Positions 16,806-56,834 of a stretch of 64,000 nt of DNA are shown here, one piece after another. Both the position numbers and the translations under genes were made by a program. The number at the start of each line of letters is the position of its first letter. The stretch's first letter is position 1. The stretch comes from Thiobacter sp. AK1 (GTDB lineage: Bacteria > Pseudomonadota > Gammaproteobacteria > Burkholderiales > Thiobacteraceae). The notes under the pieces were generated by a model, which was not told the DNA's origin, ran no database searches, and saw nothing but the letters and a program-made list of their open reading frames with translations. Where the stretch lies: assembly GCF_039822265.1 (NCBI RefSeq), contig NZ_JBAJEX010000001.1, forward strand, positions 124,001-188,000, in the 5' to 3' direction.

Positions 16806-17189
16806 TCACCCCCTGATTAGTTTGAACGTCCAGATGCCGAGCACGGTGAGGCCCAAGGAACCCAAGAGATGAACCGTCGCGGCGGCAACCGCCCAGGCGA
16901 ACTGCTCCCGCAAGAGGAGCGTCACCACCTCTGCGGAAAAAGTGGAAAACGTGGTAAGCGCGCCCAGGAAGCCGGTGACCACGAACAACCGCCATTCCGG
17001 CGCCAGGCCGGCGTGGTGCCCGAAAAACGCAACCGCCAAGCCCACGAGATAGCCCCCCATGAGATTGACGGCCAAGGTGCCTAAGGGCAGCGTGGGGAAG
17101 AAGGGATTGAGCCAGATGGCAAGCCCCCAGCGTAGCCAGGCTCCCAACACGGCCCCCGCCGCCACCGCAAGCAGGGCGTAGATATTCAT
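16806..17189 (-). CDS. crcB: Fluoride channel CrcB/Fluc
   Basis: A 127-residue protein with four membrane helices and the Fluc motifs GAWLRWGL, GTLAVNLMGGYLVG and GFLGALTTFSTFS. Dual-topology dimers export fluoride. Only 36 bp separate it from arsB upstream, with no room for a crcB-type riboswitch, so expression probably depends on the arsB promoter. Confidence 0.92.
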   Translation of the reverse strand: MNIYALLAVAAGAVLGAWLRWGLAIWLNPFFPTLPLGTLAVNLMGGYLVGLAVAFFGHHAGLAPEWRLFVVTGFLGALTTFSTFSAEVVTLLLREQFAWAVAAATVHLLGSLGLTVLGIWTFKLIRG

Positions 17190-18648: not shown

Positions 18649-19023
18649 GTGGATAACCAAGCAGCCGTCGAACTTCTCGAGTCCCTCGCCTCCGGCCCCC
18701 GCCTGAGCGTCTATCGCCTGCTGGTGAAGCACGGCTCGGCGGGACTGGTGGCGGGCGAAATCGCCGGCACCCTGGGGCTTGCCCCCAGCAACCTGTCCTT
18801 CCATCTCAAGGCGCTGGCCCAGGCGGGGCTGGTGACCCCGGTGCAGGAAGGCCGCTTCATGCGCTACCGCGCCAACATTCCCCTGATGCTGGAACTCATC
18901 GCCTACCTCACCGAGGAATGCTGCGCCCACCAGCCCGGCGAGTGCGCCAGCCTGCGAGCGGCCTCGCCCTGTTCCGAGGCCGTACTGCCTCCCCTCAAGA
19001 CGAAACCTGGAGTCAAAGCATGA
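18649..19023 (+). CDS. arsR: ArsR-family metalloid-responsive repressor
   Basis: A 124-residue winged-helix repressor starting at GTG. The recognition region is LAPSNLSFHLKALAQAGLV. It lacks the classical ELCVCDL site; instead cysteines C91, C92 and C99 (ECCAHQPGEC) lie in the C-terminal part, like the C-terminal triad of the Acidithiobacillus ferrooxidans ArsR type. It probably senses As(III) or Sb(III). Its stop overlaps the start of the rhodanese gene, and it is divergent from arsB, so it likely controls both arms. Confidence 0.85.
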   Translation: MDNQAAVELLESLASGPRLSVYRLLVKHGSAGLVAGEIAGTLGLAPSNLSFHLKALAQAGLVTPVQEGRFMRYRANIPLMLELIAYLTEECCAHQPGECASLRAASPCSEAVLPPLKTKPGVKA

Positions 19024-19940
19024 AACGCCTGATCCTGCTGTTCGCCGCCCTGCTGGCGATCGCCCCGGCCGCCTTCGCCGACCGTTCCTTCCTCGTGGAT
19101 GCGGACTGGCTCGCCGGCCAGATGAAAAACCCCAAGCTGGTGGTGCTGGAGGTGCGCTACCACCCCCACCGCTACTTCACCGTGGGCCACATTCCAGGAG
19201 CCATCCAGGTGCAGCGCTTCAAGGACCTGGGCGATAACGCGGGGCGCTCCATCATGCTGTTTCCGAGCCGGGACAAATTCCAGGCCACGCTGCGCGGCTG
19301 GGGCATCGACAACGACTCGCTGATCGTGCTCTACGACGACTCGCGCACGGCGCTCGCCGCTCGGCTTTACTTTCTGCTCGCGCTCTACGGCTACGACATG
19401 AGCCGGGTAAAGATCCTCGACGGCGGCACCGTGGAATGGACGGCCTTCAACGAATTGACCCAGAAGCCGACGTTACCGCGCAAGCGCGGCACCGTCACCC
19501 TCAAACCCGCGGACCGGCGCCTGTTCGTGGAATGGCCGCAGGTCTATGACGACGTGCTGTCGCGGCGCGACCCGAACATCGTGCTGGTGGATGCCCGCCC
19601 CCACGACATGTACACCGGCAAGGTGGTACGCCACGCGATCCAGCCGGGCCACATTCCGGGCGCCATCAACGTGGTAAGCCTGGATGGCACCGATGCGCAA
19701 ACCCAGAAATGGCTGTCCGAGGAGCAGCTCGCCGCCCTCTACAAGGACGTGCCCCGCGACAAGACCGTCTATCTGTACTGCCACGACGGCTTCCGCATGA
19801 GCCTCGGCTGGCTGCAGCTGAAGTCCCTGGGCTACCAGGACGTGCGCGTGCTCAACGGCGGCTGGAGCATTTGGGACCGGGCCATGACCCTGCCGGTGGT
19901 CGAAGGCGAGCAGCCCTATGATGCCGACTTTTCACTTTGA
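19020..19940 (+). CDS. Periplasmic sulfurtransferase with two rhodanese domains
   Basis: A 306-residue protein with a signal peptide (cleavage after AAFA, residue ~20). Two rhodanese folds follow; the first has Asp in place of the catalytic cysteine (LYDDSRT), the second carries the active-site loop CHDGFRMS with Cys254. Such enzymes move sulfane sulfur from thiosulfate to cyanide or thiols. It starts by ATGA overlap with arsR, which ties it to metalloid stress; a link to thiolated arsenic is only a guess. Confidence 0.85.
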   Translation: MKRLILLFAALLAIAPAAFADRSFLVDADWLAGQMKNPKLVVLEVRYHPHRYFTVGHIPGAIQVQRFKDLGDNAGRSIMLFPSRDKFQATLRGWGIDNDSLIVLYDDSRTALAARLYFLLALYGYDMSRVKILDGGTVEWTAFNELTQKPTLPRKRGTVTLKPADRRLFVEWPQVYDDVLSRRDPNIVLVDARPHDMYTGKVVRHAIQPGHIPGAINVVSLDGTDAQTQKWLSEEQLAALYKDVPRDKTVYLYCHDGFRMSLGWLQLKSLGYQDVRVLNGGWSIWDRAMTLPVVEGEQPYDADFSL

Positions 19941-19949
19941 GGATTGCCC

Positions 19950-21014
19950 ATGAACACGGCTGACACCACCACAGCCAAAGCACCCCAGCCCCTGGGCCTG
20001 GGCGCCTGGATTGCCGCCATCGCGGTCGCGGCCGCACTCTGGCTGCTGGCCTATACCCATCTGACCGAATTCGCCGATTTCGTCGTCGGCGCCCTCGGCC
20101 TCTCGCGCAGCACCCACCTGGGCGAGGCGGTGCATTTCTTTTTCTACGACACCCCCAAGGTGCTGCTGCTGCTCGCAGGCATCGTGTTCCTCATGGGCAT
20201 CATCCAGACCTTCTTCGCGCCGGAGCGCACGCGCGCGCTGCTGTCCGGCCGGAAGCTCGGCATCGGGAATGTGCTGGCGGCGAGCCTCGGCATCGTCACG
20301 CCATTCTGCTCCTGCTCGGCGGTGCCGCTGTTCATCGGCTTTCTCTCCGCCGGCGTGCCGCTGGGCGTGACGTTCTCCTTCCTGATTTCGGCCCCCATGG
20401 TGAACGAGGTGGCGCTCGCCCTGCTGTTCGGCCTGTTCGGCTGGAAGGTGGCGGCGCTGTACCTGGGCCTAGGCCTGCTGGTAGCCATCGTCGCGGGGCT
20501 CATCATCGGCGAACTGAAAATGGAACGCCACCTGCAGGACTGGGTGCGTGCCATCCACATGGGCGAAGCCGCCGCCACCACCGGCGAGACCCTGGGCTGG
20601 GTCGATCGCTTCCGCGCCGGACTGCATCACGTGAAAGAGATCGTCGGCAAGGTCTGGCCCTATGTCCTCATCGGCATCGCCGTCGGCGCCGGCATCCATG
20701 GCTATGTGCCGGAAGACTTCATGGCCTCCATCATGGGCAAGGATGCGCCCTGGTGGTCCCTGCCGGCGGCGGTGGCCATCGGCGTGCCCATGTACACCAA
20801 CGCGGCCGGCGTGCTGCCCATCGTCGAAGCCCTGATCGGCAAGGGCGCGGCGCTGGGCACCACACTCGCCTTCATGATGAGCGTGATCGCCCTGTCGCTG
20901 CCGGAAGTGCTCATCCTGCGCAAGGTGCTCAAGCTGCCCCTCATCCTCGCCTTCGTGGGTGTGGTGTCGGCCGGCATCCTGCTGGTGGGCTACGTGTTCA
21001 ACGCCATTCTGTGA
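19950..21014 (+). CDS. Permease of the ArsP/SO_0444 type (DUF318)
   Basis: A 354-residue membrane protein with about eight to ten helices and the family motif TPFCSCSAVPLFIGFLSAG (two cysteines in the membrane), plus APMVNEVALALLFG and VPMYTNAAGVLPIVEAL. Relatives export trivalent organoarsenicals (ArsP) or Cu/Zn (SO_0444). ATG 19950 follows GAGG, 9 bp after the rhodanese stop. It is followed by a Cys-tailed protein and a small thioredoxin, a grouping seen with this permease class. Confidence 0.82.
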   Translation: MNTADTTTAKAPQPLGLGAWIAAIAVAAALWLLAYTHLTEFADFVVGALGLSRSTHLGEAVHFFFYDTPKVLLLLAGIVFLMGIIQTFFAPERTRALLSGRKLGIGNVLAASLGIVTPFCSCSAVPLFIGFLSAGVPLGVTFSFLISAPMVNEVALALLFGLFGWKVAALYLGLGLLVAIVAGLIIGELKMERHLQDWVRAIHMGEAAATTGETLGWVDRFRAGLHHVKEIVGKVWPYVLIGIAVGAGIHGYVPEDFMASIMGKDAPWWSLPAAVAIGVPMYTNAAGVLPIVEALIGKGAALGTTLAFMMSVIALSLPEVLILRKVLKLPLILAFVGVVSAGILLVGYVFNAIL

Positions 21015-21338: not shown

Positions 21339-21629
21339 ATGATGAACATCAAGGTACTGGGCACCGGCTGTGCCAACTGCAAGACCACGCTCAAGCTCAT
21401 CGAAGACGCCGCCCGCGCCAAGGGTGTGGCAGTCCAGCTGGAGAAAGTGGAAGACATCGCCGAGATCATGAAATACGGGGTCATGTCCACCCCGGGCGTG
21501 GTGATCGACGGCAAGGTGGTGCACGCCGGCGGCGTGCCCGCCAAAGACAAGATCGACGCCTGGCTCGCCGGTACGACCACCGCCGCTACCGGCGCCGGCG
21601 GCTGCTGCAGCGGCGGCAAGTGCGGCTGA
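21339..21629 (+). CDS. Small thioredoxin-fold protein (TM0996/MTH895 type)
   Basis: A 96-residue protein starting MMNIKVLGTGCANCKTTLKLIE; the redox CxxC is C11-A-N-C14 (counting from the first Met) and the cis-Pro loop is MSTPGVVIDG. The family reduces disulfides of nearby metalloprotein partners. Unusually it has an extra tail ending GGCCSGGKCG. Next to the ArsP/SO_0444-like permease, suggesting a function in metalloid or thiol handling. Confidence 0.85.
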   Translation: MMNIKVLGTGCANCKTTLKLIEDAARAKGVAVQLEKVEDIAEIMKYGVMSTPGVVIDGKVVHAGGVPAKDKIDAWLAGTTTAATGAGGCCSGGKCG

Positions 21630-22215: not shown

Positions 22216-22482
22216 ATGCGACCCCTGGAGGCGGCCGCGACGCCCGCCTGCTTCGCTGAACTGCTCGACCAGTACCTGCTGGCCGTCCTCTATGGCCTGC
22301 TCTACGAATCGCTTGCCGCCGAGAGCCGCCAACGCCTGGCGCATAGGGAGCAGGCCCTGGACCGCCTCGATGAGACCCTCGCGCGCCTCGCCCTGAAGCG
22401 CAATGCCCTGCGGCAGGAAAAGATCGTGGAGGAAATCGAGGTCATTCTCTCCAGCCAGCAGGCCCTTCTCGATCATGGCTGA
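22216..22482 (+). pseudogene. C-terminal remnant of an N-type ATP synthase gamma subunit
   Basis: The encoded 88 residues match the last helix of F1-type gamma subunits, with the N-ATPase pattern ESLAAESRQRLAHREQALD, LDETLARLALKRN and IVEEIEVILSSQ. The catalytic-shaft N-terminal part and the other atp genes are absent. The stop overlaps the start of the P-type ATPase gene by 8 bp, so the tail may persist because it couples translation. Whether it is expressed is unknown. Confidence 0.6.
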
Positions 22483-25024
22483 CGCGCCCGTGAATGCGGT
22501 CCCCACCCGAACCGGCTTGGACCACGCCGAGGCCGCGCGCCGGCTTGCCGCCGACGGCCCCAACGTCCTGCCCGGCGGGCAACGCCGCACCTGGGTGAAC
22601 ATCATTGTCGAGACGGCCAGGGAACCCATGTTCCTGCTGCTCTTCGCCGCCGGCACGCTCTATCTCGTTTTCGGCGCGTTGCAGGAAGGGCTGATCCTGT
22701 TCGGCTTCGTGCTGGTCACGCTTGCCCTCACGCTCTATCAGGAAGGCAAGACCGAACGCGCCATCGAGGCCCTGCGCGACCTCACCAGTCCGCGTGCGCT
22801 GGTGATCCGCGACGGCGAACGGCTGCGGATTCCTGGGCGCGAGGTGGTGCGCGGCGACCTGGTGGTCTTGAGCGAGGGCGACCGTGTCCCGGCCGACGCC
22901 GTCTTGATCGAGGGCAGCGGCCTCATGGTGGACGAGTCCCTCCTCACCGGCGAGGCCGTGCCGGTCGCCAAATCCCCTGCGGCCGGCGAACCAGCGCCGG
23001 CGCGGCCCGGGGGCGACGCCACACCCTTCCTCTATTCCGGCACCCTGGTCGTCGCAGGCCAAGGAACGGCGCGGGTGACCGCGACGGGCCCGAAGAGCGA
23101 GATCGGCCGCATCGGCACCGCGCTGGGCACACTGGAGACGGAACGTTCGCCGCTGCAAAAGCAGACCGCGCAATTGATCCGCACACTCGCCTTGCTGGCG
23201 CTGGGCATGAGCCTGCTGCTGGTGCTGGCCCACGGCCTGCTGCGCGGCGACTGGTTACAGGCGCTCTTGGCTGGCATCGCCTTGGCCATGGCCATGCTGC
23301 CGGAGGAATACCCGGTCGTGCTCACGGTGTTTCCCGCGCTCGGTGCATGGCGGCTCGCGAAAGAAAAGGTGCTGACCCGGCGCGTCGCCGCCATCGAAAC
23401 CCTGGGCGCCACGTCGGTGCTGTGCGTGGACAAGACCGGCACGCTCACCGAAAACCGCATGACGGTGGCGCGGCTGTGGGTCAACGGTGAAAGCTTGGCG
23501 ATGAATGACCCGGCGGCGGTCGAACTGCCGGAAGCCTTTCATGCGCTGGTGGAGTATTCGATACTCGCCAGCGAGACCGATCCCTTTGATCCCATGGACA
23601 AGGCGTTTCTCCGCCTCGGCCAGCACTTTCTCGCCGATACCGAGCACCTGCACCGCGATTGGACGCTGGTGCACGACTATGGACTGAATCCCGCGTTGCG
23701 CACCATGGCGCATGTGTGGCGGGCGGTGGACAGCGCGATATTCGTGGTCGCGGTCAAGGGCGCGCCGGAGGCCATCGTCGATCTGTGCCACGTCGATACC
23801 GCCGCAGCCGCAGACATTTCCGCCGCCGCCGAGGCCATGGCCGCCGACGGCCTGCGCGTGCTGGGGGTGGCGCGGGCGCAATTCGAAGGCAAGGCTTTCC
23901 CCGCCGTCGAACATGATTTCGATTTCGAGTTCGTCGGCCTGCTGGGCTTGGCCGACCCGCTGCGCCCGGAGATCCCCGCGGCCGTGCGCCAGTGCCATGA
24001 AGCCGGCATCCGGGTGGTGATGATCACCGGCGATTATCCGGCCACGGCGCGCGCCATCGCGCGGCAGGCGGGACTGCCTGCCGACGAGATCCTGTCCGGC
24101 GACGAACTGGCGACGATGAGCGAGGCCGAACTGCAGGCGCGCATGAAGACCGCGCGCGTGTGTGCCCGCATCGCGCCGGAACAGAAACTCGCCATCGTGC
24201 GGGCGCTGAAGGCCAACGGCGAGATCACCGCCATGACCGGCGACGGCGTCAACGACGCCCCGGCGCTCAAGGCCGCCCACGTCGGCATCGCCATGGGCGG
24301 CCGCGGCACCGACGTCGCGCGCGAGGCAGCGGCGCTGGTGCTGCTGGACGACAACTTCGCCTCCATCGTGAATGCCGTGCGGCTGGGGCGGCGCATCTTC
24401 GACAACATGCAGAAGTCCATGTCCTACATCCTGGCGGTGCATGTGCCGATCGCCGGCATGGCGCTGCTGCCGGTGCTGCTGGGTCTGCCCGCCATGCTGT
24501 TTCCCATGCACATCGCCTTTCTCGAACTCATCATCGATCCGGCCTGCTCGCTCGCCTTCGAGAACGAGCCGGCGGAGGCGGATCTCATGCAGCGGCCGCC
24601 GCGCGATCCCCAGGCGCTGCTGTTCGGCGGCGCCACGCTGTGGCGGGCGCTGCTGCAGGGCCTCGGCGTGCTGGCGGTGACGCTCGGTGCCTACGCCTGG
24701 GCCGATCACCGGCTCGCCGAGCCCGCTGCCCGCGCCTTCGGCTTCACCACGCTGGTCGTGGCCAACCTGGCCCTGATATTCTCCAACCGCTCGCGCGCCA
24801 GCGCCGCGCTGGCGTCGCTCGCCGCGCCCAACCCCATCCTGTGGATCGTGACGGGCGCGACCCTCGGCTTGCTCGCCCTCGCGCTGTATCAGCCCTTCTT
24901 GGCCGGCGTGTTCCGCTTCGCCCCCCTGCCGCCGGGCGAACTGGCGGTCGCCTTCGGCCTCGGGCTGGCCAGCGTGGCGTGGTTCGGTCTGCTGAAATTT
25001 TTCCATCGAAAGCCCACGCCATGA
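22475..25024 (+). CDS. Cation-translocating P-type ATPase
   Basis: An 849-residue P-type ATPase starting MADAPVNAVPTRTG. It has an N-terminal cation-ATPase domain (TGLDHAEAARRLAADGPN), LTGEAVPV (actuator), PEEYPVVLT in the ion-binding helix (276-280), phosphorylation site DKTGTLTEN (D319) and GDGVNDAPALKAAHVG (~589). No N-terminal metal-binding CxxC domain, so it is not a classical Cu/Zn/Cd pump; the ion (Ca, Na, K or H-like) is not evident. Overlaps the ATP-grasp gene (ATGA). Confidence 0.88.
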   Translation: MADAPVNAVPTRTGLDHAEAARRLAADGPNVLPGGQRRTWVNIIVETAREPMFLLLFAAGTLYLVFGALQEGLILFGFVLVTLALTLYQEGKTERAIEALRDLTSPRALVIRDGERLRIPGREVVRGDLVVLSEGDRVPADAVLIEGSGLMVDESLLTGEAVPVAKSPAAGEPAPARPGGDATPFLYSGTLVVAGQGTARVTATGPKSEIGRIGTALGTLETERSPLQKQTAQLIRTLALLALGMSLLLVLAHGLLRGDWLQALLAGIALAMAMLPEEYPVVLTVFPALGAWRLAKEKVLTRRVAAIETLGATSVLCVDKTGTLTENRMTVARLWVNGESLAMNDPAAVELPEAFHALVEYSILASETDPFDPMDKAFLRLGQHFLADTEHLHRDWTLVHDYGLNPALRTMAHVWRAVDSAIFVVAVKGAPEAIVDLCHVDTAAAADISAAAEAMAADGLRVLGVARAQFEGKAFPAVEHDFDFEFVGLLGLADPLRPEIPAAVRQCHEAGIRVVMITGDYPATARAIARQAGLPADEILSGDELATMSEAELQARMKTARVCARIAPEQKLAIVRALKANGEITAMTGDGVNDAPALKAAHVGIAMGGRGTDVAREAAALVLLDDNFASIVNAVRLGRRIFDNMQKSMSYILAVHVPIAGMALLPVLLGLPAMLFPMHIAFLELIIDPACSLAFENEPAEADLMQRPPRDPQALLFGGATLWRALLQGLGVLAVTLGAYAWADHRLAEPAARAFGFTTLVVANLALIFSNRSRASAALASLAAPNPILWIVTGATLGLLALALYQPFLAGVFRFAPLPPGELAVAFGLGLASVAWFGLLKFFHRKPTP

Positions 25025-26367
25025 ATTCGCAACTCCCTCACGCCACGCTGCCGCTGCCGGTCAGCGCGGAAAGCCTCAACCGCGGCTGCGCCTGCCGCAC
25101 CCTCGATCCGCAGCGCCTGCGCCAGCAGCTGGAGGCGGAACCGTCGCTCGCGGGTTTGTACGACGACATCGCAGCAAGCCGCCCCACGCTTTTTTCCGCC
25201 ACCACGGTATTCATTTCACCGCAGCAGTACCGGGCCATGGCGGCCATCGTCTCGGCCGTGGAGACGGTGGTGGCCTTGCCCGCCTACCAGGAGGCGGTGC
25301 TTGCCCGCGCGCCGGCCATCGCGCGCCTCCACCACGGCCCGCGCGGCGTGTTCATGGGCTTCGATTTCCACCTCGGTGCACAGGGTCCGCAACTCATCGA
25401 GATCAACACCAATGCCGGCGGCGCGCTGCTCAATGCGGTGCTGGCGCGCGCCCAGGCGGCCTGCTGCCGGGAGATGGAATGGGCATTCCAGCCTTCCGCC
25501 GATCTCGCGCGGCTGGAAGAGACTTTCCTCGCCATGTTCCGGGAGGAGTGGCGCCGCCAGCGCGGCGAGGCGCCGCTCGCCCGCATCGCCATCGTCGACG
25601 ACGACCCGGCGGGGCAGTATCTCTATCCCGAGTTCAAGCTGTTCGAGCGGCTGTTCGCGCGCGCCGGGATCACGGCGGTGATCGCCGACCCGGGTGACCT
25701 CGCCTGGCGCGACGGTCGCCTGTGGCACGACGGCAAAGCCATCGACCTCATCTACAACCGGCTCACCGACTTCTATCTCGACGAAGCCCGCCACGCCCAA
25801 TTGCGCCAGGCCTACGAGGCGGGCGCCGTGGTGTTGACACCGCATCCGCGCGCCCACGCCCTGTATGCCGACAAGCGCAACCTGATCCTGCTGAGCGATG
25901 CCCAAGCGCTCGCGCGGATGGGCGCGCCGTCCCCGGCGATCGAAGTCCTGCAGGCCGGCGTGCCGCGCACGGAAGCGGTCACGCTGGATGACGCCGAGCG
26001 CCTGTGGGCGCAGCGCCGCGGCCTATTCTTCAAGCCGGCGTCGGGCTACGGCAGCAAAGCGGCCTATCGCGGCGACAAGCTCACGCGCCGGGTATGGCAG
26101 GCAATTCTCGCCGGCGACTACGTGGCCCAGACCATCGCCCCGCCCAGCGAGCGCCTGACGCAGGTGGACGGGCACACCGCCGACCTCAAGGTCGACGTGC
26201 GCGCCTACGTCTATGCAGGCCAGGTGCAACTGCTCGCGGCGCGGCTCTATGCCGGCCAGACCACCAACTTCCGCACGCCGGGCGGCGGCTTTGCGCCGGT
26301 GTTCGTGGCGCCGGAAACCCCCGCGAAACTTAGCCGAGGAGCAAGCAATGTGTGGAATTTGTGGTGA
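25021..26367 (+). CDS. ATP-grasp-like ligase, apparently circularly permuted (copy 1)
   Basis: A 448-residue protein not recognised by name. The order of motifs is unusual: the metal-binding EIN motif (LIEINTNAGG, 127-131) comes first, YNRLTDFY at 245-252 is central, and the nucleotide-binding Lys/Gly loop FFKPASGYGSKA (336-347) and DVRAYVYAG (392-400) come last. That order suggests a circularly permuted ATP-grasp fold, so a carboxylate-amine ligase is likely. A conserved NRGCACRTLD opens the protein. It overlaps the P-type ATPase upstream and the amidotransferase downstream. A paralogue lies at 36187-37464. Confidence 0.75.
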   Translation: MNSQLPHATLPLPVSAESLNRGCACRTLDPQRLRQQLEAEPSLAGLYDDIAASRPTLFSATTVFISPQQYRAMAAIVSAVETVVALPAYQEAVLARAPAIARLHHGPRGVFMGFDFHLGAQGPQLIEINTNAGGALLNAVLARAQAACCREMEWAFQPSADLARLEETFLAMFREEWRRQRGEAPLARIAIVDDDPAGQYLYPEFKLFERLFARAGITAVIADPGDLAWRDGRLWHDGKAIDLIYNRLTDFYLDEARHAQLRQAYEAGAVVLTPHPRAHALYADKRNLILLSDAQALARMGAPSPAIEVLQAGVPRTEAVTLDDAERLWAQRRGLFFKPASGYGSKAAYRGDKLTRRVWQAILAGDYVAQTIAPPSERLTQVDGHTADLKVDVRAYVYAGQVQLLAARLYAGQTTNFRTPGGGFAPVFVAPETPAKLSRGASNVWNLW

Positions 26368-28150
26368 ATTGCGCTTGGATGGCACGGCTCCCGACGCAGC
26401 CGCCGTGCGGCGCATGACGGAAGCGCTGGCGCGGCGCGGTCCCGACGATCAGGGCTATTTCCAGGACGGGCCGGTGGCCTTCGGGCATCGCCGGCTCGCC
26501 ATCATCGACCTCTCTTCCCACGCCCACCAACCCATGGTGGACAAGGCGCTGCGGCTGGCCCTGGTGTTCAACGGCACGATCTACAACTACCGCGAACTGC
26601 GCGCCGAGTTGATGGAACTGGGCTACTGCTTTTTCTCCGAAGGCGACACCGAAGTGATCCTGAAGGCCTATCACGCCTGGGGCGAACATTGCGTGGAACG
26701 CTTCTACGGCATGTTCGCCTTCGCCATCCACGACCTGCGCCATGGCAGCCTGTTTCTCGCCCGCGACCGCTTCGGCATCAAGCCCCTGTATTACAGCCTG
26801 GACACGGCGCGGCTGCGTTTCGCTTCCAGCGTGCAGGCGCTGCTGGCCGGCGGCGGGGTGGACACCACCATCGACCCCGTCGCGCTGCACCACCATTTCA
26901 CCCTGCACACCGTGGTGCCGGCACCGCGCACCATTCTCAACGGCGTGAAAAAGCTCGCGCCCGCCACGACCCTGACCTGGAGCGCCACGGGACAGGTAAC
27001 CCAGCGCACCTACTGGCATTTGGACGCGACCCGCCCGGCTCAGGTGCTTACCGAAGCGGAGTGGCTCGACGCCACCCGTGGCGTGCTTGCCCGCGCCGTG
27101 GAGCGGCATCGCCGAGCGGCGGACGTGCCGGTTGGCGTGCTGCTCTCCGGGGGGCTCGATTCCAGCCTGCTGGTGGCCCTGCTGGCCGATCACGTGGCGG
27201 ATCTGCGCACCTTTTCCGTGGGGTTCGAGGACTTGGACGCAGACGTCGAAAAGGCCGACGAATTCGCGTATTCGGACTTGATGGCGGAGCATTTCCGCAC
27301 CCGCCATCATCAATACCGCATCCCCAATTCGGAGGTCCTCGAACGACTGCCCGAGGCCGTGGCCTGGATGACCGAGCCCATGGTGAGCCACGACGTCATC
27401 GCCTTCTATCTCCTGAGCGAAAAGGTCTCGCAACAGGTAAAAGTAGTGCTGGCGGGACAGGGGGCGGACGAGGTGTTCGGCGGCTACTTCTGGTATCCGC
27501 GCATGGAGGCCGAATCGGGCACGCCCCTGGAGCGCTTCCGTCGCCATTATTTCGACCGGGATCACGCCGAATACCTGGAGATGATCGCTCCCGCCTGGCA
27601 TGTGCCGGACGTGACCGCCGAACTGGTGGAGCGCGAATTGGCGCGGCCCGGTGCCGATACCTTTCTCGATCAGGTATGGCGCTTCGACATCACCACGCTC
27701 ATCGTGGACGACCCGGTGAAAAGAGTGGACAACATGCCCATGGCCTGGGGGCTGGAAGTGCGCGTGCCTTTTCTGGACCACGAACTGGTGGAGCTGGCGG
27801 CGAAAATGCCGCCGGAACTCAAACTGCGGGAAGGCGGCAAATACCCGCTCAAGGCCATCGCCCGGGGCTTGGTGCCGGACGCGGTGATCGACCGGCCCAA
27901 GGGCTATTTTCCGGTGCCGGCGCTGAAATACGTGCGCGGCGAGTTTCTGGAACGCATGCGCGGCATCCTGACCTCGCAGGCCTGTCTGCGCCGCGGCCTG
28001 TACCAGCGGGCCTATGTGGAAAAGCTGTTGGCCGAACCAGAAGCCCACTTCACCCGCATTCAGGGCAGCAAGCTCTGGCATCTGGCACTGCTGGAGTGGT
28101 GGCTGCAGGTCAATGTCGACGAAGCAGGCCATGCCCCGCCCAAACAATAG
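26348..28150 (+). CDS. AsnB-like glutamine amidotransferase (N-acetylglutaminylglutamine amidotransferase type)
   Basis: A 600-residue class II amidotransferase. Cys2 after the initiator (MCGICGE) is the glutaminase nucleophile; RRGPDDQG and FNGTIYNYRELR follow. The synthetase domain has the PPi loop SGGLDSS (267-273) and the GQGADEVFGGY segment. It resembles the AsnB-like enzymes that amidate N-acetylglutaminylglutamine, an osmolyte, but the usual GNAT/ATP-grasp partner is replaced by a different ATP-grasp protein, whose gene it overlaps by 20 bp. The product made here is therefore unknown. Confidence 0.82.
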   Translation: MCGICGELRLDGTAPDAAAVRRMTEALARRGPDDQGYFQDGPVAFGHRRLAIIDLSSHAHQPMVDKALRLALVFNGTIYNYRELRAELMELGYCFFSEGDTEVILKAYHAWGEHCVERFYGMFAFAIHDLRHGSLFLARDRFGIKPLYYSLDTARLRFASSVQALLAGGGVDTTIDPVALHHHFTLHTVVPAPRTILNGVKKLAPATTLTWSATGQVTQRTYWHLDATRPAQVLTEAEWLDATRGVLARAVERHRRAADVPVGVLLSGGLDSSLLVALLADHVADLRTFSVGFEDLDADVEKADEFAYSDLMAEHFRTRHHQYRIPNSEVLERLPEAVAWMTEPMVSHDVIAFYLLSEKVSQQVKVVLAGQGADEVFGGYFWYPRMEAESGTPLERFRRHYFDRDHAEYLEMIAPAWHVPDVTAELVERELARPGADTFLDQVWRFDITTLIVDDPVKRVDNMPMAWGLEVRVPFLDHELVELAAKMPPELKLREGGKYPLKAIARGLVPDAVIDRPKGYFPVPALKYVRGEFLERMRGILTSQACLRRGLYQRAYVEKLLAEPEAHFTRIQGSKLWHLALLEWWLQVNVDEAGHAPPKQ

Positions 28151-28189: not shown

Positions 28190-29149
28190 ATGATGAACAA
28201 CCGCTTTGCCCTGCCCCGCCAGCTCTGGCTGGTCATCCTCGGCGTCGCCCTGCTCGCCGCCTTTGCCTGGCTCGCGACCCATAGCGGCCCGTTCGCGCCG
28301 ATCAAGGTGACGGTAGTCCAGGTCGCCCGGGGCGAGGTGCGGCCGGCGCTGTTCGGCATCGGCACGGACGAGGCCCGCCGCTACATCGATCTGGGCAAAC
28401 AGAATTTCGTCAGCCAGAGCGTGGTGGACGCCAAGCTGCAGCTGCGGCAGTCGGCCGATGCCCAGGTGGCTGCCGCGCAATCGGCGCTGGCCAGCGCACG
28501 GGAAGACCTGGCCCGGCTGCAGGCCGAACGCGCCGGGGTGCAGCAGCAGCGCAGCAATATCCGTTTGCTGGCCCCGGTCGATGGCGTGGTGACCGCGCGC
28601 GATGCCGAGCCCGGCACCACGGTGATCGCCGGGCAGTCGGTGCTCAAGCTGGAGGATCCCGCCAGCCTCTGGGTGACGGTGCGGATCGACCAGGCACGCG
28701 CCGCGGGCCTCAAGGTCGGCCTGCCGGCGGAGATCGCCCTGCGCGCCCATGCAGGCACGCCGCTGTCGGGCAAGGTGGCGCGGGTCGAACCGATCAGCGA
28801 CAGCGTGACCGAGGAGCGCATCGCCCAAGTGGCGTTCGACAGCCTGCCGCACGGCGTGAGCAGCAACGAGATGGCGGACGTGACGCTGCATCTGCCCGCG
28901 GTGGCCGATGCGCTGGTGGTGCCCAATGCCGCGCTGCGCCATCGCGGCGCCCAAGCCGGCGTCTGGCTGCGCGCCGACGGCAGGCTGCGCTTCGTGCCGG
29001 TGAAAGTGGGCGCCGAAGGGCTGGACGGCAAGGTGCAGATCGTCGACGGGCTGAAGGCCGGCGACGAGGTCGTGGTCTACAGCGAACGCTCCCTGCAGGA
29101 AGGCAGCCGCATCAAGGTGGTGGATGCCTTGGCCGGAGCCGCGCAATGA
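28190..29149 (+). CDS. HlyD-type adaptor of an ABC exporter with internal deletion
   Basis: A 319-residue periplasmic adaptor with one N-terminal membrane helix, a coiled-coil hairpin (about 65-120), the second half of the lipoyl motif (APVDGVVTARDAEPGTTVIAGQ) and a beta-barrel. The first half of the lipoyl domain, normally G-x-V and D-rich before the hairpin, is missing: ALFGIGT runs straight into DEARRYIDLGKQNFVSQ near 28365. The deletion is in frame, and the protein is shorter than usual by some 60-75 residues. Overlaps the permease gene (ATGA). Confidence 0.75.
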   Translation: MMNNRFALPRQLWLVILGVALLAAFAWLATHSGPFAPIKVTVVQVARGEVRPALFGIGTDEARRYIDLGKQNFVSQSVVDAKLQLRQSADAQVAAAQSALASAREDLARLQAERAGVQQQRSNIRLLAPVDGVVTARDAEPGTTVIAGQSVLKLEDPASLWVTVRIDQARAAGLKVGLPAEIALRAHAGTPLSGKVARVEPISDSVTEERIAQVAFDSLPHGVSSNEMADVTLHLPAVADALVVPNAALRHRGAQAGVWLRADGRLRFVPVKVGAEGLDGKVQIVDGLKAGDEVVVYSERSLQEGSRIKVVDALAGAAQ

Positions 29150-30339
29150 TCAGCCTGGCCGGCCGCGACATCCTCCATTCCTGGGGCAAGTTCGTGCTCA
29201 CCGGGCTGGGGCTGGGCCTGCTGATCGGCGTCACCTTCACCATGGCGGGCGTCTACCGGGGCATGGTGGACGATGCCCGCGTGCTGCTCACTAACAGCGG
29301 CGCCGACCTTTGGGTGGTGCAGAAGGATACGCTCGGGCCCTACGCCGAGTCGTCCAGCCTTCCCGACGACGTCTATCGCGGCATCCTCGGCACGCCCGGC
29401 GTCGCGCAGGCCGCCAACGTCACCTATCTCACCATGCAGGTGCGCCGGGGCAACAGTGACGTGCGCGCCATGGTGGTGGGCTTCGTGCCGGGCCAACCGG
29501 GGGAGCCCGATTACCTGGTGGCGGGCCGGCGCATCACCCGCGGCCATTACAAGGCGGTGGCCGATGGGATGACGGGTTTCCATGTCGGCGACCGAATCCG
29601 TATCCGCCGCCACGACTACGACGTGGTGGGACTCACGCGGCGCATGGTGTCCTCCGGCGGCGACCCGATGGTGTTCATCCCGTTGAAGGATGCCCAGGAG
29701 GCGCAGTTCCTCAAGGACAACGACGCCATCGTCAACCAGCGCGCCCGAACCGTCGCCAATCCCGCCCTCAACCGCCCCGGCGTGCCCGGCCTCTTGGACG
29801 CGATCGACGCCTCGCAGACCAGCAACCACACCGTCAATGCGGTGCTGGTGCGGGTGGCCGAGGGCCATTCGCCGGAGGCGGTGGCGCAGGACATCCGCCG
29901 CTGGAAGCACCTGCAGGCCTACACCCGCGCGCAGATGGAGAACATCCTGATCGCCAAGCTGATCGCCACCGCCTCCAAACAGATCGGCATGTTCCTGGTG
30001 ATTCTGACAGTGGTCAGCGCGGCCATCGTCGCCTTCATCATCTACACCATGACGCTGGGCAAGATCCGCGAGATCGCCGTGCTGAAGCTGATCGGCACCC
30101 ATAACCGCACCATCGCCAGCATGATCCTGCAGCAGGCACTGGGGCTGGGCTTGATCGGCTTCGTCGTCGGCAAGATCGCCGCCACCCTGTGGGGGCCAGC
30201 CTTCCCGAAATACGTGCTGCTGCTGCCCGAGGACGCGGTGCGCGGCTTCGTCATCGTCATGGGGGTGTGCATGCTGGCCAGCACCCTGGCGATTCAGGCG
30301 GCGCTCAAGGTCGACCCGGCCACCGCGATCGGAGGTTGA
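29146..30339 (+). CDS. FtsX-like ABC transporter permease (DevC type)
   Basis: A 397-residue permease with one N-terminal helix, a large periplasmic domain and three C-terminal helices, as in DevC/MacB permeases (SLAGRDILHSWGKF start; LGKIREIAVLKLIGTHN in the cytoplasmic loop). It appears complete, unlike its two partners on either side, so the exporter as a whole probably no longer works unless another ATPase serves it. Confidence 0.85.
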   Translation: MISLAGRDILHSWGKFVLTGLGLGLLIGVTFTMAGVYRGMVDDARVLLTNSGADLWVVQKDTLGPYAESSSLPDDVYRGILGTPGVAQAANVTYLTMQVRRGNSDVRAMVVGFVPGQPGEPDYLVAGRRITRGHYKAVADGMTGFHVGDRIRIRRHDYDVVGLTRRMVSSGGDPMVFIPLKDAQEAQFLKDNDAIVNQRARTVANPALNRPGVPGLLDAIDASQTSNHTVNAVLVRVAEGHSPEAVAQDIRRWKHLQAYTRAQMENILIAKLIATASKQIGMFLVILTVVSAAIVAFIIYTMTLGKIREIAVLKLIGTHNRTIASMILQQALGLGLIGFVVGKIAATLWGPAFPKYVLLLPEDAVRGFVIVMGVCMLASTLAIQAALKVDPATAIGG

Positions 30340-30340
30340 C

Positions 30341-30605
30341 ATGGACAAGGGCGTCGGCATCCGCATCGAAGGCTTGAGCAAGCGCTACGGCAAGGGCGAC
30401 ACCGCCGTCGATGCGCTCAAGGAGGTGAACATGCAGGTCGCCCCCGGCGAGGATGCGTATCCTCGACCAGATGGCAACGCAGTATCAGACCGCCACCATT
30501 GTCGTCACCCATGACGAGAAAATCATCCCCACCTTCAAGCGCATCTACCACATCCGCGACGGACGCACTGTGGAAGAGGCAAGTGAAGGACGGGCAATTG
30601 CGTAA
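30341..30605 (+). pseudogene. ABC exporter ATPase, internally deleted and frameshifted
   Basis: The first 37 codons encode a normal DevA/LolD-like start (IEGLSKRYGKGDTAVDAL, MQVAPGE). At about 30452 the frame breaks, and from 30453 a second frame encodes the normal C-terminus (MRILDQMATQYQTATIVVTH, DEKIIPTFKRIYHIRDGRT). Walker A, Q-loop, signature and Walker B, roughly 140 residues, are missing. It is not functional. Confidence 0.85.
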
Positions 30606-30620
30606 AGGCGTGCATCAACC

Positions 30621-30917
30621 ATGACTGCATGCGTCCCGCCGCCCCCCGGCGCCCCGCGCATCGCGCTGACCCTGGTCGGCAGCGGCGAGCCCCTGTTGCG
30701 CCTGGAAAAGCGCCTGCACTGCGCCGCCGCCGGGCTGGGACTGGCGCTGGACCTGGATATCCGCAAGAATGCCGAGGCGCTGGGCATCCCTTTCGCCCGG
30801 ACGCCTGCCGTGTTGCGGGACGGGCGGGTCGTCCTCAACGGCCTGCCGCGCACCGAGGAAATCGAAGCCTGGCTGCGCCAGACCTTTCACACTGGGAAAC
30901 AAGATCATGAGCCATGA
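30621..30917 (+). CDS. Small thioredoxin-fold-like protein lacking CxxC
   Basis: A 98-residue protein with the outline of the small TM0996-type thioredoxins (TLVGSGEPLLRLEKRLHCAA at the usual active-site position; FARTPAVLRDGRVVLNG as the cis-Pro loop; a C-terminal IEAWLRQTF helix). The CxxC is replaced by SGEP, leaving a single cysteine nearby. It overlaps the CDF gene by 11 bp. It may be a non-redox partner or a decayed copy. Confidence 0.6.
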   Translation: MTACVPPPPGAPRIALTLVGSGEPLLRLEKRLHCAAAGLGLALDLDIRKNAEALGIPFARTPAVLRDGRVVLNGLPRTEEIEAWLRQTFHTGKQDHEP

Positions 30918-31839
30918 CCATAGCCACGCCCATACCGGTGCCGGCACCACCCTCATTCTGGCGACGCTGCTCACCCTGGGTTTTGCCGGCGTGGAAGCCG
31001 GCGTCGGCCTGTGGGCCGGGTCGCTGGCCCTGGTGGCGGACGCCGGCCACATGGTCAACGACGCGGCGGCCCTGGCCCTGGCGGCGGGCGCGGCCTGGCT
31101 CGCGCGGCGGCCGACCTCGCTGCGCCACAGCTACGGCCTCGGCCGTGCCGAATTCATCGCCGCGCTGGTCAACAGCATCGGCCTGCTGGTGCTGGTGGGC
31201 TGGCTCACGGTGTCCGCCGTCGAGCGCCTGCAGCAACCCCAGGCCGTGCAGGGCGAGGCCGTCTCCATCACCGCCGCCATCGGTCTGGCCATCAACCTGC
31301 TGGTGGCCTGGCTGCTGACGCGTGGCGAGAAGAACCTCAACACCCGCGCCGCCCTGCTGCATGTAATGGGCGATCTGCTCGGCTCGGTGGCGGCGCTGCT
31401 CTCGGGCCTCATCATCTTCTTCACTGGCTGGACGCCCATCGACCCGCTGCTGACCTTCGCCATCGGCGCGCTCATCCTCGTCTCCAGCCTGCGCCTGCTG
31501 CGCGAATCGCTGCACGGCCTGATGGAGGGCGCGCCCTTCAACATCGATCCGGAAGCGGTGGGCCGAGCACTGGCCGGCGTGCCAGGCGTGGCCTCGGTGC
31601 ACGACTTGCACATCTGGGCGGTCAAGGCGGATGAGCCCCTGCTGTCGGCGCATCTGGTGGTGCGCGACATCGGCCAGTGGGAAAGCGTGCTCGACGCCAG
31701 CCACGCCCTGCTGGCCGAGCGCTTCGACATCCACCACGCCACCCTGCAGCCGGAACCCATGGTACGCATCGTTCGCTGGCGCGCACCACCCGGGCGCGGC
31801 CATGACCATGACCATGAACACGATCACGCACACGACTGA
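30907..31839 (+). CDS. Cation diffusion facilitator (Zn/Cd/Co exporter, CzcD/ZitB type)
   Basis: A 310-residue CDF transporter. The N-terminus (HDHSHAH) and C-terminus (GHDHDHEHDHAHD) are His rich. Six helices carry the metal site residues in ADAGHMVND (D45, H48, D52; the usual Thr is Asn) and HVMGD. The cytoplasmic domain has SVHDLHIW. It exports Zn(II)-like ions with proton exchange. ATG 30907 begins the His-rich start typical of the family. Confidence 0.92.
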   Translation: MSHDHSHAHTGAGTTLILATLLTLGFAGVEAGVGLWAGSLALVADAGHMVNDAAALALAAGAAWLARRPTSLRHSYGLGRAEFIAALVNSIGLLVLVGWLTVSAVERLQQPQAVQGEAVSITAAIGLAINLLVAWLLTRGEKNLNTRAALLHVMGDLLGSVAALLSGLIIFFTGWTPIDPLLTFAIGALILVSSLRLLRESLHGLMEGAPFNIDPEAVGRALAGVPGVASVHDLHIWAVKADEPLLSAHLVVRDIGQWESVLDASHALLAERFDIHHATLQPEPMVRIVRWRAPPGRGHDHDHEHDHAHD

Positions 31840-36186: not shown

Positions 36187-37464
36187 ATGACGACGTTGCC
36201 GGTGACAGCGGAAGCCCTCAACCGCGGCTGCGGCTGCCGTACCCTCGATACCGCGAGACTGCGCCACCAGTTGGAAGCCGATCCCGCGCTGGCGGGACTC
36301 TATGAGACGATCCAAGCAAGTCGGCCCCACCTTTTCTCTTCCACGGCGGTGTTCATTTCCGCGCCGCACGCACACGTCATCGAGCAAGTGGTGCGCACGG
36401 TGGAGGCGGTGGTGGCGCACCCCAGTTATCGTGAAGCCGTGCTGGCGCGTGCGCCCGCCATCGCTCGCCACGACTTTGGTCCACGGGGTGTGTTTCTCGG
36501 GTTCGATTTCCATTTGGGGCCGGCCGGCCCGCAATTGATCGAGATCAACACCAATGCCGGCGGCGCCCTGCTCAATGCCGTGCTGGCACGCGCCCAGGCG
36601 GCCTGCTGCCGGGAGATGGAATGGGTGTTCAGGCCACCGGCCGATCTCGATCACATCGAGGCACGTTTCCTCGCCATGTTTCGCGAGGAGTGGCGGCGCC
36701 AGCGTGGCACCGGTGAGCCGCAGACGGTGGCCATCGTGGACGATGCGCCCAACCAGCAATATCTCCACCCGGAATTCGTGCTGTTCGAGCGTCTGTTTCA
36801 CCGCCACGGCTGGCAGGCGTTCATCCTGGATGCGGCAGCGCTCAGTTTCGATGGAACTCGGCTTGCCCATGGCAGCACGACCATCGATCTGGTTTACAAC
36901 CGGCTCACGGATTTCTACTTCGAGGCTTCCACACATGCGTCCCTGCATGCGGCCTATCGAGCGGGCGCGGCAGTCGTGACGCCCCATCCCCACGCCCACG
37001 CTCTCTACGCGGACAAACGCAATCTCGTTTGGCTATCGGACGCGGCCTGGCTCACAGCGTCTGGATTGCCGCCGGAATCGGTGGCGATTCTGACGGGCCA
37101 CGTGCCGCGCACGGTCGAGGTGGATGCAACGAATGCGGACGCGCTGTGGGCGACCCGCCGAGAATGGTTCTTCAAACCCGCCACCGGTTATGGTAGCAAG
37201 GCGGCCTATCGCGGCGACAAGCTCACGCGCCGGGTGTGGCAGGAAATCGTCACCGGCGGCTACGTGGCCCAGGCGATCGCGCTGCCCAGTGCCCGGCTTG
37301 CGCCGGTGGAAGAAGGCACGGCCGAGCTCAAGCTTGATGTCCGTGCCTATGCCTATGGCGGGGAGGTGCAATTGCTGGCCGCCCGGCTCTACCGCGGACA
37401 GACCACCAACTTCCGCACGCCGGGCGGCGGCTTCGCGCCGGTATTCGTGGTGCCCGCGTCCTGA
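36187..37464 (+). CDS. ATP-grasp-like ligase, apparently circularly permuted (copy 2)
   Basis: A 425-residue paralogue of the protein encoded at 25021, similar over its full length. The same motifs appear in the same order: NRGCGCRTLD (12-20), LIEINTNAGG (EIN at 119), YNRLTDFY (237-244), FFKPATGYGSKA (328-339), DVRAYAYGG (384-392), QTTNFRTPGGG. No amidotransferase follows; downstream is the SpeD-SpeE fusion in opposite orientation, 6 bp away. It probably acts as a ligase, and whether it shares a substrate with copy 1 is unknown. Confidence 0.75.
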   Translation: MTTLPVTAEALNRGCGCRTLDTARLRHQLEADPALAGLYETIQASRPHLFSSTAVFISAPHAHVIEQVVRTVEAVVAHPSYREAVLARAPAIARHDFGPRGVFLGFDFHLGPAGPQLIEINTNAGGALLNAVLARAQAACCREMEWVFRPPADLDHIEARFLAMFREEWRRQRGTGEPQTVAIVDDAPNQQYLHPEFVLFERLFHRHGWQAFILDAAALSFDGTRLAHGSTTIDLVYNRLTDFYFEASTHASLHAAYRAGAAVVTPHPHAHALYADKRNLVWLSDAAWLTASGLPPESVAILTGHVPRTVEVDATNADALWATRREWFFKPATGYGSKAAYRGDKLTRRVWQEIVTGGYVAQAIALPSARLAPVEEGTAELKLDVRAYAYGGEVQLLAARLYRGQTTNFRTPGGGFAPVFVVPAS

Positions 37465-37470
37465 ACCCGC

Positions 37471-38736
37471 TCAGCCGACGGCGCGTTTCGCCTCGGGCTG
37501 GACTGGCTCTTGTACCAGGGCGCGATAGAAGTTGGGTAGGGCAAACAGCCCGTAATGCACGTCGGCGTTGTAGTAGGAAAGCGCTGGCAAGGCCGCGGCG
37601 CGCTTCTCCACCACCGCGCGCGGGACGGCGGTGGGGTTGAGCCGGTCTGACGCCAGGGCGAAGCCCCAGTAGGCGCCATACAGCGGCACGTAAAGGCCGA
37701 AACAGTGCACCTGGGGAAATACGTGACGCAGTCCCCGCACAATGGTGCGCACCTGCTCGGCCTCGAACACGGGGGTGCCCACGTGGAGCACCACCGCGGC
37801 TCCTGGATTCATCACCCGCCGCAGATTCTCGAAGAATGCTTCCGTATAAAGTAGTCCAGCGGGCGTTTCGGGATCGGTGAGATCAAGCAGCACCAGATCG
37901 AAGCGGTCGCTGGTGTCCCGCACATAGGCAAAGCCGTCGCCGATGCGCAGGGAAAGCCTTGGATCGTCGAACACGCCGCGATGAATCGCGCCCAGATGCG
38001 CTTTTGCCACTTGCACCACTTCGGCATCCAGCTCCGCCAGCACCACCTGCTGCACGCTGGAATGCTTGAGCACTTCTTCCGCCGCGCCGCCATCGCCGCC
38101 ACCGATGATCAGCACGCGCTCGGGCTTGCCATGGGCCACCGCAGCGGGATGCACCAAGGCCTCGTGATAGAAGTATTCCTCGCCTTCCGAGGTCATGAAA
38201 TGACCATCGATACGCAGGGCACGACCAAAAGCCGGCGTGTCCAACACTTCGATGGTCTGATGGGGACTGCGCTTGACGAGCAACCGCTCGCGGCTGCGAA
38301 AGCCATAGACGGCATCGCCTGCGGCGTTGAGGGGTTCGAGGATGATTTCATCCGGTGGACGCCGGTCGCCGCCGCGTTCCAGATGGTGGATCTCGCTCTT
38401 GCCGGGCTCGAAGGCCGCGACGATTTCCCGCAGCAGGGCCTCCGCCTTGCCAGAATTGTCGGTGGTGAAGTTGCACACGTACACGTCCAGCGTGACGGCA
38501 CGCTTCTCCGGCCAGGTATGCACAGCCAGATGTGATTCGGCGAGCAGCAGCATGCCGGTCACGCCACCCGGCTGGCCGTCGTAGGGTGGGAAGGCATACC
38601 ACTTTTCATCCACGAGCGTGAGGCCCGCGGCGAGGGTGTGGTTGCGACACAGGTCGGCAAGCTGTTTGGCGTCGGTCATCAGACCGTCGGCACACCGGCA
38701 GTCATACAGATCAGCCGTCAGATGAAGCCCTTGCAT
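37471..38736 (-). CDS. Fused S-adenosylmethionine decarboxylase / spermidine synthase
   Basis: A 421-residue fusion. Residues 1-~120 are a bacterial SpeD: the pyruvoyl precursor is Ser68 in ESHLAVHTWPE, where self-cleavage occurs. Residues ~130-421 are a SpeE aminopropyltransferase with GGGDGG (212-217) and the LDLTDPETPAG substrate loop. One chain thus makes decarboxylated SAM and transfers its aminopropyl group to a diamine or polyamine. Most bacteria encode these separately. Confidence 0.92.
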   Translation of the reverse strand: MQGLHLTADLYDCRCADGLMTDAKQLADLCRNHTLAAGLTLVDEKWYAFPPYDGQPGGVTGMLLLAESHLAVHTWPEKRAVTLDVYVCNFTTDNSGKAEALLREIVAAFEPGKSEIHHLERGGDRRPPDEIILEPLNAAGDAVYGFRSRERLLVKRSPHQTIEVLDTPAFGRALRIDGHFMTSEGEEYFYHEALVHPAAVAHGKPERVLIIGGGDGGAAEEVLKHSSVQQVVLAELDAEVVQVAKAHLGAIHRGVFDDPRLSLRIGDGFAYVRDTSDRFDLVLLDLTDPETPAGLLYTEAFFENLRRVMNPGAAVVLHVGTPVFEAEQVRTIVRGLRHVFPQVHCFGLYVPLYGAYWGFALASDRLNPTAVPRAVVEKRAAALPALSYYNADVHYGLFALPNFYRALVQEPVQPEAKRAVG

Positions 38737-55391: not shown

Positions 55392-55840
55392 GGCTTCACG
55401 CCTGCCTCGCGCAGTTTCTTCAGGATGGCGGGCTGCCAGATCGACACCCGGGTGCGGATTTCGTTGCGCACCCGGCGGAAGACCCCGAGCTGCTCTGCCT
55501 CGCTGCACCTCGCCGCGGCCGGATCCTCGAAGCGCCAGTGGATGCGCGCGTTGTCGCCGGGAAAGGTGGGGCAGTTGTCGCGGGCGCGATCGCACACGGT
55601 GATGATGTAGTCGAATTCCTGGTTCAGAAATTCAGTCAGATCTTTGCTGCGCTGGCCCGAGATGTCGATGCCCGCCTCCCGCATCACCTGCACCGCCAGC
55701 GGGTGCAGGGCCTTGGGTTCGGTGCCCGCGCTGAACACCGCGAAATGTTCCTTGCCCATGGTGCGCAGGAAGGCCTCCGCCATCTGGGAGCGGGCGGAAT
55801 TGCCGGTGCAGAGAAACAGCACGCGCACAGGATGATGCAT
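55388..55840 (-). CDS. arsC: Thioredoxin-coupled-type arsenate reductase ArsC (copy 1)
   Basis: A 150-residue low-molecular-weight phosphatase-fold protein with the P-loop LCTGNSARSQMAEAF (C11-x5-R17) and the two further cysteines in TVCDRARDNCP that relay electrons in the Staphylococcus-type ArsC. GGGGAG precedes the ATG at 55840. It reduces As(V) to As(III) for export by ACR3. Confidence 0.92.
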   Translation of the reverse strand: MHHPVRVLFLCTGNSARSQMAEAFLRTMGKEHFAVFSAGTEPKALHPLAVQVMREAGIDISGQRSKDLTEFLNQEFDYIITVCDRARDNCPTFPGDNARIHWRFEDPAAARCSEAEQLGVFRRVRNEIRTRVSIWQPAILKKLREAGVKP

Positions 55841-56000
55841 GGACTCCCCTTCCCCCTTCAGCGACCGATGCCGCGGCCCCTGCCCGGGCGCGCCGCGGAG
55901 CCCGCGACACGGCAAGCGGCCCACGGCGCATGCGCGCGGATGGGCTCCGCCGCTTGGGTTAGGCCTGCATGCAGGCAAAGATTTTCCATGGCCTGCGCCT

Positions 56001-56417: not shown

Positions 56418-56454
56418 GCTTGCTTGCCTTTCTATATTCATTTTAATGCATGAA

Positions 56455-56799: not shown

Positions 56800-56806
56800 G
56801 CCGGCC

Positions 56807-56834
56807 ATTATATTTGTTTCAACGCATATTGCAA
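56807..56834 (-). promoter_or_regulatory. arsR promoter, leaderless start
   Basis: On the minus strand TTGCAA (56834-56829), 16 bp, then a perfect TATAAT (56812-56807). Seven bases later is the ATG at 56799. The spacer TATGCGTTGAAACAAA and flanks contain an ATAT...ATAT symmetry likely bound by ArsR. Confidence 0.7.

Follow-up and report, generated by a model that had tools for sequence, protein, structure and literature searches.

What do three genes produce that overlap head to tail on the + strand of the Thiobacter sp. AK1 genome and encode a P-type ATPase, an ATP-grasp-like protein and an AsnB-like glutamine amidotransferase, and do they produce it together? The genes occupy positions 22475-28150 of the analysed stretch of 64,000 nucleotides (contig NZ_JBAJEX010000001.1, positions 124,001 to 188,000), hereafter called the window, to which all coordinates refer unless a locus is named. 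An earlier note on this DNA had read the locus, by inference, as an operon for an amidated dipeptide-like solute or ligand whose production is tied to ion export. The coordinates and the overlaps given there, 4 bp between pump and ATP-grasp gene and 20 bp between ATP-grasp and AsnB gene, were confirmed. The explanation preferred here is a different one. The ATP-grasp family is repeatedly located in arsenic, copper, and also mercury resistance loci, and the region around the three genes reads as an acquired metal(loid)-resistance island, mosaic in make-up and decayed in part.

An ATP-grasp family in metal-resistance loci

No Pfam or NCBIfam match was obtained at E 0.01 for the ATP-grasp protein P0003 (25021..26367, +, 448 aa). 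Its predicted fold, that of glutathione synthetase, GspS and YgiC, suggests a ligase of the circularly permuted ATP-grasp type; the family to which it belongs has no name and a patchy distribution. An AlphaFold2 model was built from a 24-sequence alignment (predicted local distance difference test score 89.1, predicted template modelling score 0.89). Using Foldseek and VIA-align, the best PDB matches of the model were YjfC, YgiC, glutathione and homoglutathione synthetases, GspS, the trypanothione synthetase TryS, the fungal ligase Cp1B, and 3n6x; the glutathione synthetases matched are of the eukaryotic type. The best 20 structural entries reached Z 24-30 over 317-391 residues (YjfC 29.8 over 356 residues, homoglutathione synthetase 27.9 over 390); the rows for LysX, 1gsa, and the Ddl type reached 8-10. 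By structural alignment, the permuted ATP-grasp ligases are 9-16% identical to the protein. Searches against PDB sequences gave three rows at E 0.67 for the single sequence and no match at E 1 for the family profile.

The order of the motifs is permuted as well, with D115-F-H and E127-I-N129-T-N in the N-terminal part and F-F-K338-P, K390-x-D392-x-R394, and GQTTNFRT in the C-terminal part. In an alignment of 80 rows, K338 occurs in all 80, D115, H117, E127, and N129 are nearly invariant in the 78 rows with the column, and the same holds for K390, D392, and R394 in 79 rows. Conserved within the family are therefore the ATP-site lysine and a D-x(11)-E-x-N motif (D115, E127, N129), the residues of which we take to be equivalent to the GspS metal ligands. 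The equivalent motif of YgiC and YjfC has a spacing one residue longer than the D-x(11)-E of the family. Predicted fold and conserved motifs agree with the earlier assignment of this protein as a likely carboxylate-amine ligase.

Members of the family were detected in 68 of the 399 genomes of the order Burkholderiales and in 13 of 350 genomes sampled from the class, 11 of them outside the order. Furthermore, 32 plasmid records match, 30 of which are listed with the product name "hypothetical" or with none. Neighbourhoods were read for 19 of these plasmid records. In 15 of the 19, copper, mercury, chromate, or heavy-metal ATPase genes are annotated within 6-12 kb, and the annotations of the four that were not counted as metal-linked (L225, L226, L229, and L242) name only resistance-nodulation-division, cation diffusion facilitator, or DUF305 genes. 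In all, 85 loci were fetched and 83, which may include near-copies, were used, two lacking an anchor match; as controls served 40 AsnB-centred loci and 20 stretches taken arbitrarily from genomes in the same set. Of the 83 ATP-grasp loci, 27 have an arsenic or copper marker no more than 9 kb away, versus 0/40 AsnB-centred and 0/20 arbitrary stretches (Fisher p 4.9e-8); taken singly, arsenic occurs in 19 and copper in 10 of the 83. Using a wider marker set, the numbers are 31/83 versus 1/40 controls. Of four markers checked, ACR3, ArsJ, and the ArsJ-associated GAPDH exceed the NCBIfam cut-offs and ArsC matches arsenate reductase models below cut-off; the copper marker names are those of the plasmid annotations. 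On a tree of 102 ATP-grasp sequences the arsenic label changes eight times (at least three of them forced) and the copper label four times (at least two forced), which suggests that the family was linked to metal genes repeatedly.

Outside the order, where 11 loci with 1.5-kb flanks were inspected (G000 and G049, which belong to the own order, were excluded), a metal(loid) neighbour occurs in three. In L275 the ATP-grasp gene is situated between arsR and arsC/ACR3, in L276 it lies directly behind a copper-type P-type ATPase gene, and in L281 it is located beside arsM; the preset markers picked out the first two, and the third was noticed by eye. A study of Nitratiruptor tabulates higher transcript levels under cadmium and copper for an ATP-grasp domain protein, which may or may not belong to the present family (PMC10092412).

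Given this distribution, we would put at about even the chances that the window contains a mosaic, decaying metal island in which the ATP-grasp ligase couples a thiol peptide and an amine to a metal(loid)-buffering conjugate. The enzyme would phosphorylate a small thiol peptide at its carboxylate. The simplest candidate for this peptide is glutathione or a compound related to it, and gshB is present in the genome. The activated peptide would be coupled to an amine, and the amide product would bind or buffer toxic metal(loid)s. Where an AsnB gene follows directly, its product might conceivably amidate a free carboxylate of the conjugate or supply asparagine as a substrate. The ATP-grasp protein was also considered as a GshB replacement, a candidate dropped because the genome contains gshB over cut-off.

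Several observations weigh against the conjugate proposal. The fold specifies neither substrate nor product, and the thiol-amide chemistry is what we infer. Pfam matches among 23 relatives of P0003 are weak (best E 1.7e-4), and hhalign against YgiC/YjfC gave a probability of 1.9%, one of the profiles consisting of only two sequences. The N-terminal cysteine pair is not universal (C23 in 63/80 rows, C25 in 53/80), for which reason a copper-binding CxC near the N-terminus was dropped as a family mark. As to the neighbourhoods, 56 of the 83 loci carry no arsenic or copper marker inside 9 kb, the markers were chosen after the plasmid neighbourhoods had been seen, the p value of 4.9e-8 ignores the kinship of the loci, and the 102-row tree was obtained by a quick method with no bootstrap. 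Finally, one lineage of the family sits with crcB, encoding a fluoride exporter, and another with dinG/mobB/moeA. Due to the small number of label changes on the tree, two for crcB and one for mobB/moeA, these links were not used as general evidence.

In eight loci (L102, L103, L105, L106, L109, L111, L115, and L116) the ATP-grasp gene is located approximately 10-117 bp upstream of crcB. The window likewise contains a crcB gene (16806-17189, -), here with no adjoining ATP-grasp gene.

Pairing with the amidotransferase

It is quite possible, if not our first choice, that the three genes are passengers: the island would have gathered housekeeping enzymes that are spare or tolerate stress (F-ATPase, phosphoketolase, GAPDH, AsnB), the trio would have no common product, and AsnB would simply make asparagine. 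Against this speaks the arrangement in three places, i.e., the window, L072 of genome G160, and the Polaromonas plasmid pPNAP02, where AsnB lies directly behind the ATP-grasp gene on the same strand, with a 20-bp overlap in the first case and spacings of 6 bp and 15 bp, respectively, in the others. L071 has the same flanks as L072 but lacks AsnB. These three AsnB-linked members require three label changes on the ATP-grasp tree, at least two of which are forced, and yet their AsnBs fall into one group (93/88). Most simply, the pair arose by separate joins. The C-terminus of the window protein runs approximately 13-16 residues past the ends of the L072 protein and of a second copy in the window, over the AsnB start, as would be expected of a fresh junction.

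In favour of passengers, the group of the three AsnBs also contains three unlinked rows, and the trio with this particular pump had no second case in 85 loci, 19 plasmid neighbourhoods, and 11 short loci. Thus, by the condition that the earlier note set for its own refutation, rarity of the three genes together in other places, the trio fails; the ATP-grasp/AsnB pair recurs in two other places. On pPNAP02 (L224 10375-23876) the pair is followed by genes for transaldolase, phosphoglucomutase, phosphoketolase, acetate kinase, transketolase, and by gnd, beside heavy-metal genes, which again fits a collection of housekeeping functions. A heavy-metal P-type ATPase gene, distantly related to the window pump, is situated approximately 1.4 kb upstream of the pPNAP02 ATP-grasp gene, the product of which has, by its annotation, a long extension at the C-terminus.

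The AsnB-like protein P0004 (26348..28150, +, 600 aa) matches TIGR03104 over its full length with 978 bits (cut-off 570), in line with the glutamine-dependent amidotransferase recognised before. This model belongs to the pathway of N-acetylglutaminylglutamine amide (NAGGN), an osmolyte, in which AsnO acts together with the GNAT/ATP-grasp fusion Ngg (TIGR03103). In the 399 genomes, TIGR03104 is exceeded in 44 and TIGR03103 in five, in four of which the two genes adjoin. The own genome has no TIGR03103 match over cut-off (best 205 bits versus 569), in agreement with the earlier statement that the partner is missing. In an AsnB tree of 45 rows, built with no outgroup and leaving out two of the 44 TIGR03104 genomes (G324 and G236), the six AsnOs linked to Ngg (four of them from within the order, one each from Azospirillum and Sinorhizobium meliloti) split from the other 39 rows at 100/100. 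P0004 is one of the 39, and forcing it into the Ngg-linked clade was rejected (AU p 0.024), so that the NAGGN subtype earlier ascribed to it is not supported. TIGR03104 accepts two different AsnB clades.

Genes for dapC, dapD, or dapE, names that were assigned from sequence, occur near 16 of the 39 unlinked-clade AsnBs (16 loci within L185-L216), and only three of the 39 adjoin an ATP-grasp gene, a ratio that favours the passenger explanation. The dap neighbours may mean that asparagine or diaminopimelate amidation, instead of NAGGN, is the task of these enzymes. Because two clades pass the model, Ngg is rare, and dap genes are neighbours, the name of TIGR03104 is no guide to AsnB function here; since it spans both clades, the annotation "N-acetylglutaminylglutamine amidotransferase" may mislabel many AsnBs of the order. 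A role in asparagine supply is also consistent with the remaining gene content: no AsnS over cut-off was found in the own genome, and the best model for its other AsnB-like genes, scanned as partial sequences, is that of the XrtA amidotransferase, at scores below cut-off.

Possible but rather unlikely is a role of the ATP-grasp protein as a peptide- or protein-polyamine ligase like YgiC and YjfC, which would attach spermidine or another amine to a C-terminus and thereby alter the envelope or metal binding. The two highest structural scores belong to YjfC and YgiC, close to those of the glutathione synthetases, and in E. coli K-12 both are annotated as peptide-spermidine ligases, an annotation that goes back to Pederick et al. 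2023, as cited in PMC12568646. Moreover, the second ATP-grasp gene copy of the window (36187..37464, +, product 66% identical to that of 25021..26367) is convergent with, and 6 bp apart from, a SpeD-SpeE fusion gene (37471-38736, -), which was recognised by its SpeDE domains and encodes a fused S-adenosylmethionine decarboxylase/spermidine synthase. However, SpeDE was not matched in the other ATP-grasp loci searched, and the arginine that YgiC and YjfC carry two residues before the aspartate is a glycine in 75/80 rows of the family, as placed by motif and not by superposition.

The P-type ATPase and the probable island around it

The pump (22475..25024, +, 849 aa) is a type II-like P-type ATPase that carries a DKTGT motif and passes the Pfam cut-offs for the E1-E2_ATPase, HAD hydrolase, and C-terminal domains. 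Its nearest relative of solved structure is the Listeria calcium ATPase lmo0841, and it remains below the cut-offs of the Ca2+-ATPase equivalogs TIGR01522 (473 bits, cut-off 798) and TIGR01116 (413.5, cut-off 703). A close homologue (81%) was found in only one of 85 other ATP-grasp loci, L041 on a Gallionellaceae contig, so the proposed tie between solute production and ion export is not borne out. Distant P-type ATPases (34-37%) occur in four further ATP-grasp loci and in 1/20 arbitrary control stretches.

Directly upstream lies what is left of the 3' part of an alternate-F1F0 (N-ATPase-like) gamma gene (22237..22482, +, PF00231 E 8.5e-14), whose last 8 bp are also the first 8 bp of the pump gene. 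The remnant shares 86% identity over 79 aa with the C-terminus of the 286-aa F-type gamma of L041, and its best NCBIfam model is TIGR03323, below cut-off. No neighbouring gene from that ATPase was detected. In the own genome TIGR03305 gave no match at E 1e-220, a threshold that the variant on plasmid pSCD would also miss. With the pSCD beta as query a single match was obtained, a gene on another contig that shows 50% identity and is presumably the housekeeping atpD. A complete alternate-F1F0 operon with its own beta was thus not found; the window has the gamma 3' end only.

F-ATPase genes lie beside the ATP-grasp gene in four loci, L041, L066 (plasmid pSCD), L067, and L124, the last with an aldolase gene in between, and L041 alone among the relatives unites pump, F-ATPase, and ATP-grasp. 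The pump is best read as the remainder of an F-ATPase/P-ATPase block that lies next to the ATP-grasp gene, with no fixed partnership to the ATP-grasp protein. The F-type ATPase operon of pSCD (L225 13321-19369) encodes beta, epsilon, I-like, a, c, b-like (annotated as delta), alpha, and gamma subunits; L041, L067, and L124 have genes related to it. These fit the alternate-F1F0 models but score below the cut-offs and therefore represent a divergent variant; it was the sole linked F-ATPase scanned.

That the locus makes an amidated dipeptide similar to NAGGN, as an osmolyte or ligand that the pump would link to ion export, is consequently very improbable and was rejected: although TIGR03104 is far exceeded, the ATP-grasp protein is probably a ligase, and the pPNAP02 pair too lies near a P-type ATPase, if one of the heavy-metal kind, the AsnB stands in the other clade, Ngg is absent over cut-off, TIGR03104 in the absence of TIGR03103 is common in the order, the pump does not recur, and the neighbours indicate metals instead of osmotic stress.

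The remaining genes complete the picture of an island. Upstream, a metalloid block is headed by an ArsR-family regulator (18649..19023, +, Pfam HTH_5/HTH_20 over cut-off), relatives of which are present in a number of ATP-grasp loci, followed by a rhodanese-domain protein (19020..19940, +, PF00581), an ArsP_1-type permease (19944..21014, +, PF03773 E 8.8e-73) that occurs in the ATP-grasp loci L064, L069, and L070 as well, and a Thioredoxin_3 small redox protein (21339..21629, +, PF13192 E 9.5e-30). Downstream, 39 bp after AsnB, begins the gene of a HlyD/CusB-type fusion protein (28190..29149, +), which matches PF16576 from profile position 53 of 214 and apparently lacks the first part of the barrel-sandwich domain. 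It is followed by a MacB/FtsX permease (29146..30339, +, PF12704 and PF02687) and by an ABC ATPase gene with an internal deletion and a frame change (30341..30599, +). Compared with the intact relative in L124, residues 38-185 are gone, Walker A included; residues 1-37 and 186-236 are each matched at 86%, in different frames. A cation diffusion facilitator (30907..31839, +) was identified by PF01545 (E 5.9e-43 on the open reading frame 30769-31839). The gamma remnant, the run-on into the partly broken exporter genes, and the second ATP-grasp copy had been missed by the earlier note.

In the same-genus genome G050 (99% complete) no ATP-grasp or TIGR03104 match was found at the thresholds used. 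We do not favour an assembly error as the cause of the patchwork, since the junction overlaps are coherent and relatives seem to show the pieces. A second metalloid block with an ACR3 arsenite exporter, an ArsC-type reductase, and an ArsR-like regulator is located at 54315-56880. An Rfam scan of the whole window yielded nothing over the gathering score.

Comparison with known systems

Bacterial arsenic and copper resistance has mainly been attributed to efflux, redox change, and periplasmic binding. An unnamed, "hypothetical" ligase that recurs in metal islands would point to a biosynthetic arm, i.e., to a protective small molecule. It is tempting to speculate, doubtful as the idea is, that the family makes a thiol amide or metallophore of low molecular weight. 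This compound would be the bacterial counterpart of trypanothione, homoglutathione, or phytochelatin, would be spread along with arsenic and copper islands and, in a subset, would be further amidated by a dedicated AsnB. Due to the presence of the gene on plasmids of named strains, the role of the ligase is directly testable.

Alternate F1F0 operons, also named N-ATPases, resemble the window in the gamma remnant and the relatives L041, L066, L067, and L124 in their F-ATPase genes, but differ in that the window keeps the gamma 3' end only. Arsenic and copper resistance operons (arsR-arsC-acr3, arsJ-gapdh, copAB, copper P-type ATPase) recur as neighbours of the ATP-grasp family; in searches of the open-licence PMC literature, neither a described ATP-grasp component of such operons nor a paper describing this family was found. 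The NAGGN pathway (asnO-ngg), an operon of which is described for Pseudomonas aeruginosa in PMC8070244, shares with the window an amidotransferase over the TIGR03104 cut-off and an adjoining ATP-grasp partner; in the window, however, the AsnB is of the other clade, the GNAT/ATP-grasp Ngg is replaced by another kind of ATP-grasp protein, and the setting is one of metal resistance. Closest to the ATP-grasp protein are the glutathione and homoglutathione synthetases, GspS, YgiC/YjfC, and Cp1B, with which it shares the predicted fold over almost the full length and the order of metal- and ATP-binding motifs, and from which it is set apart by the absence of a family-model match and by its place among arsenic and copper genes.

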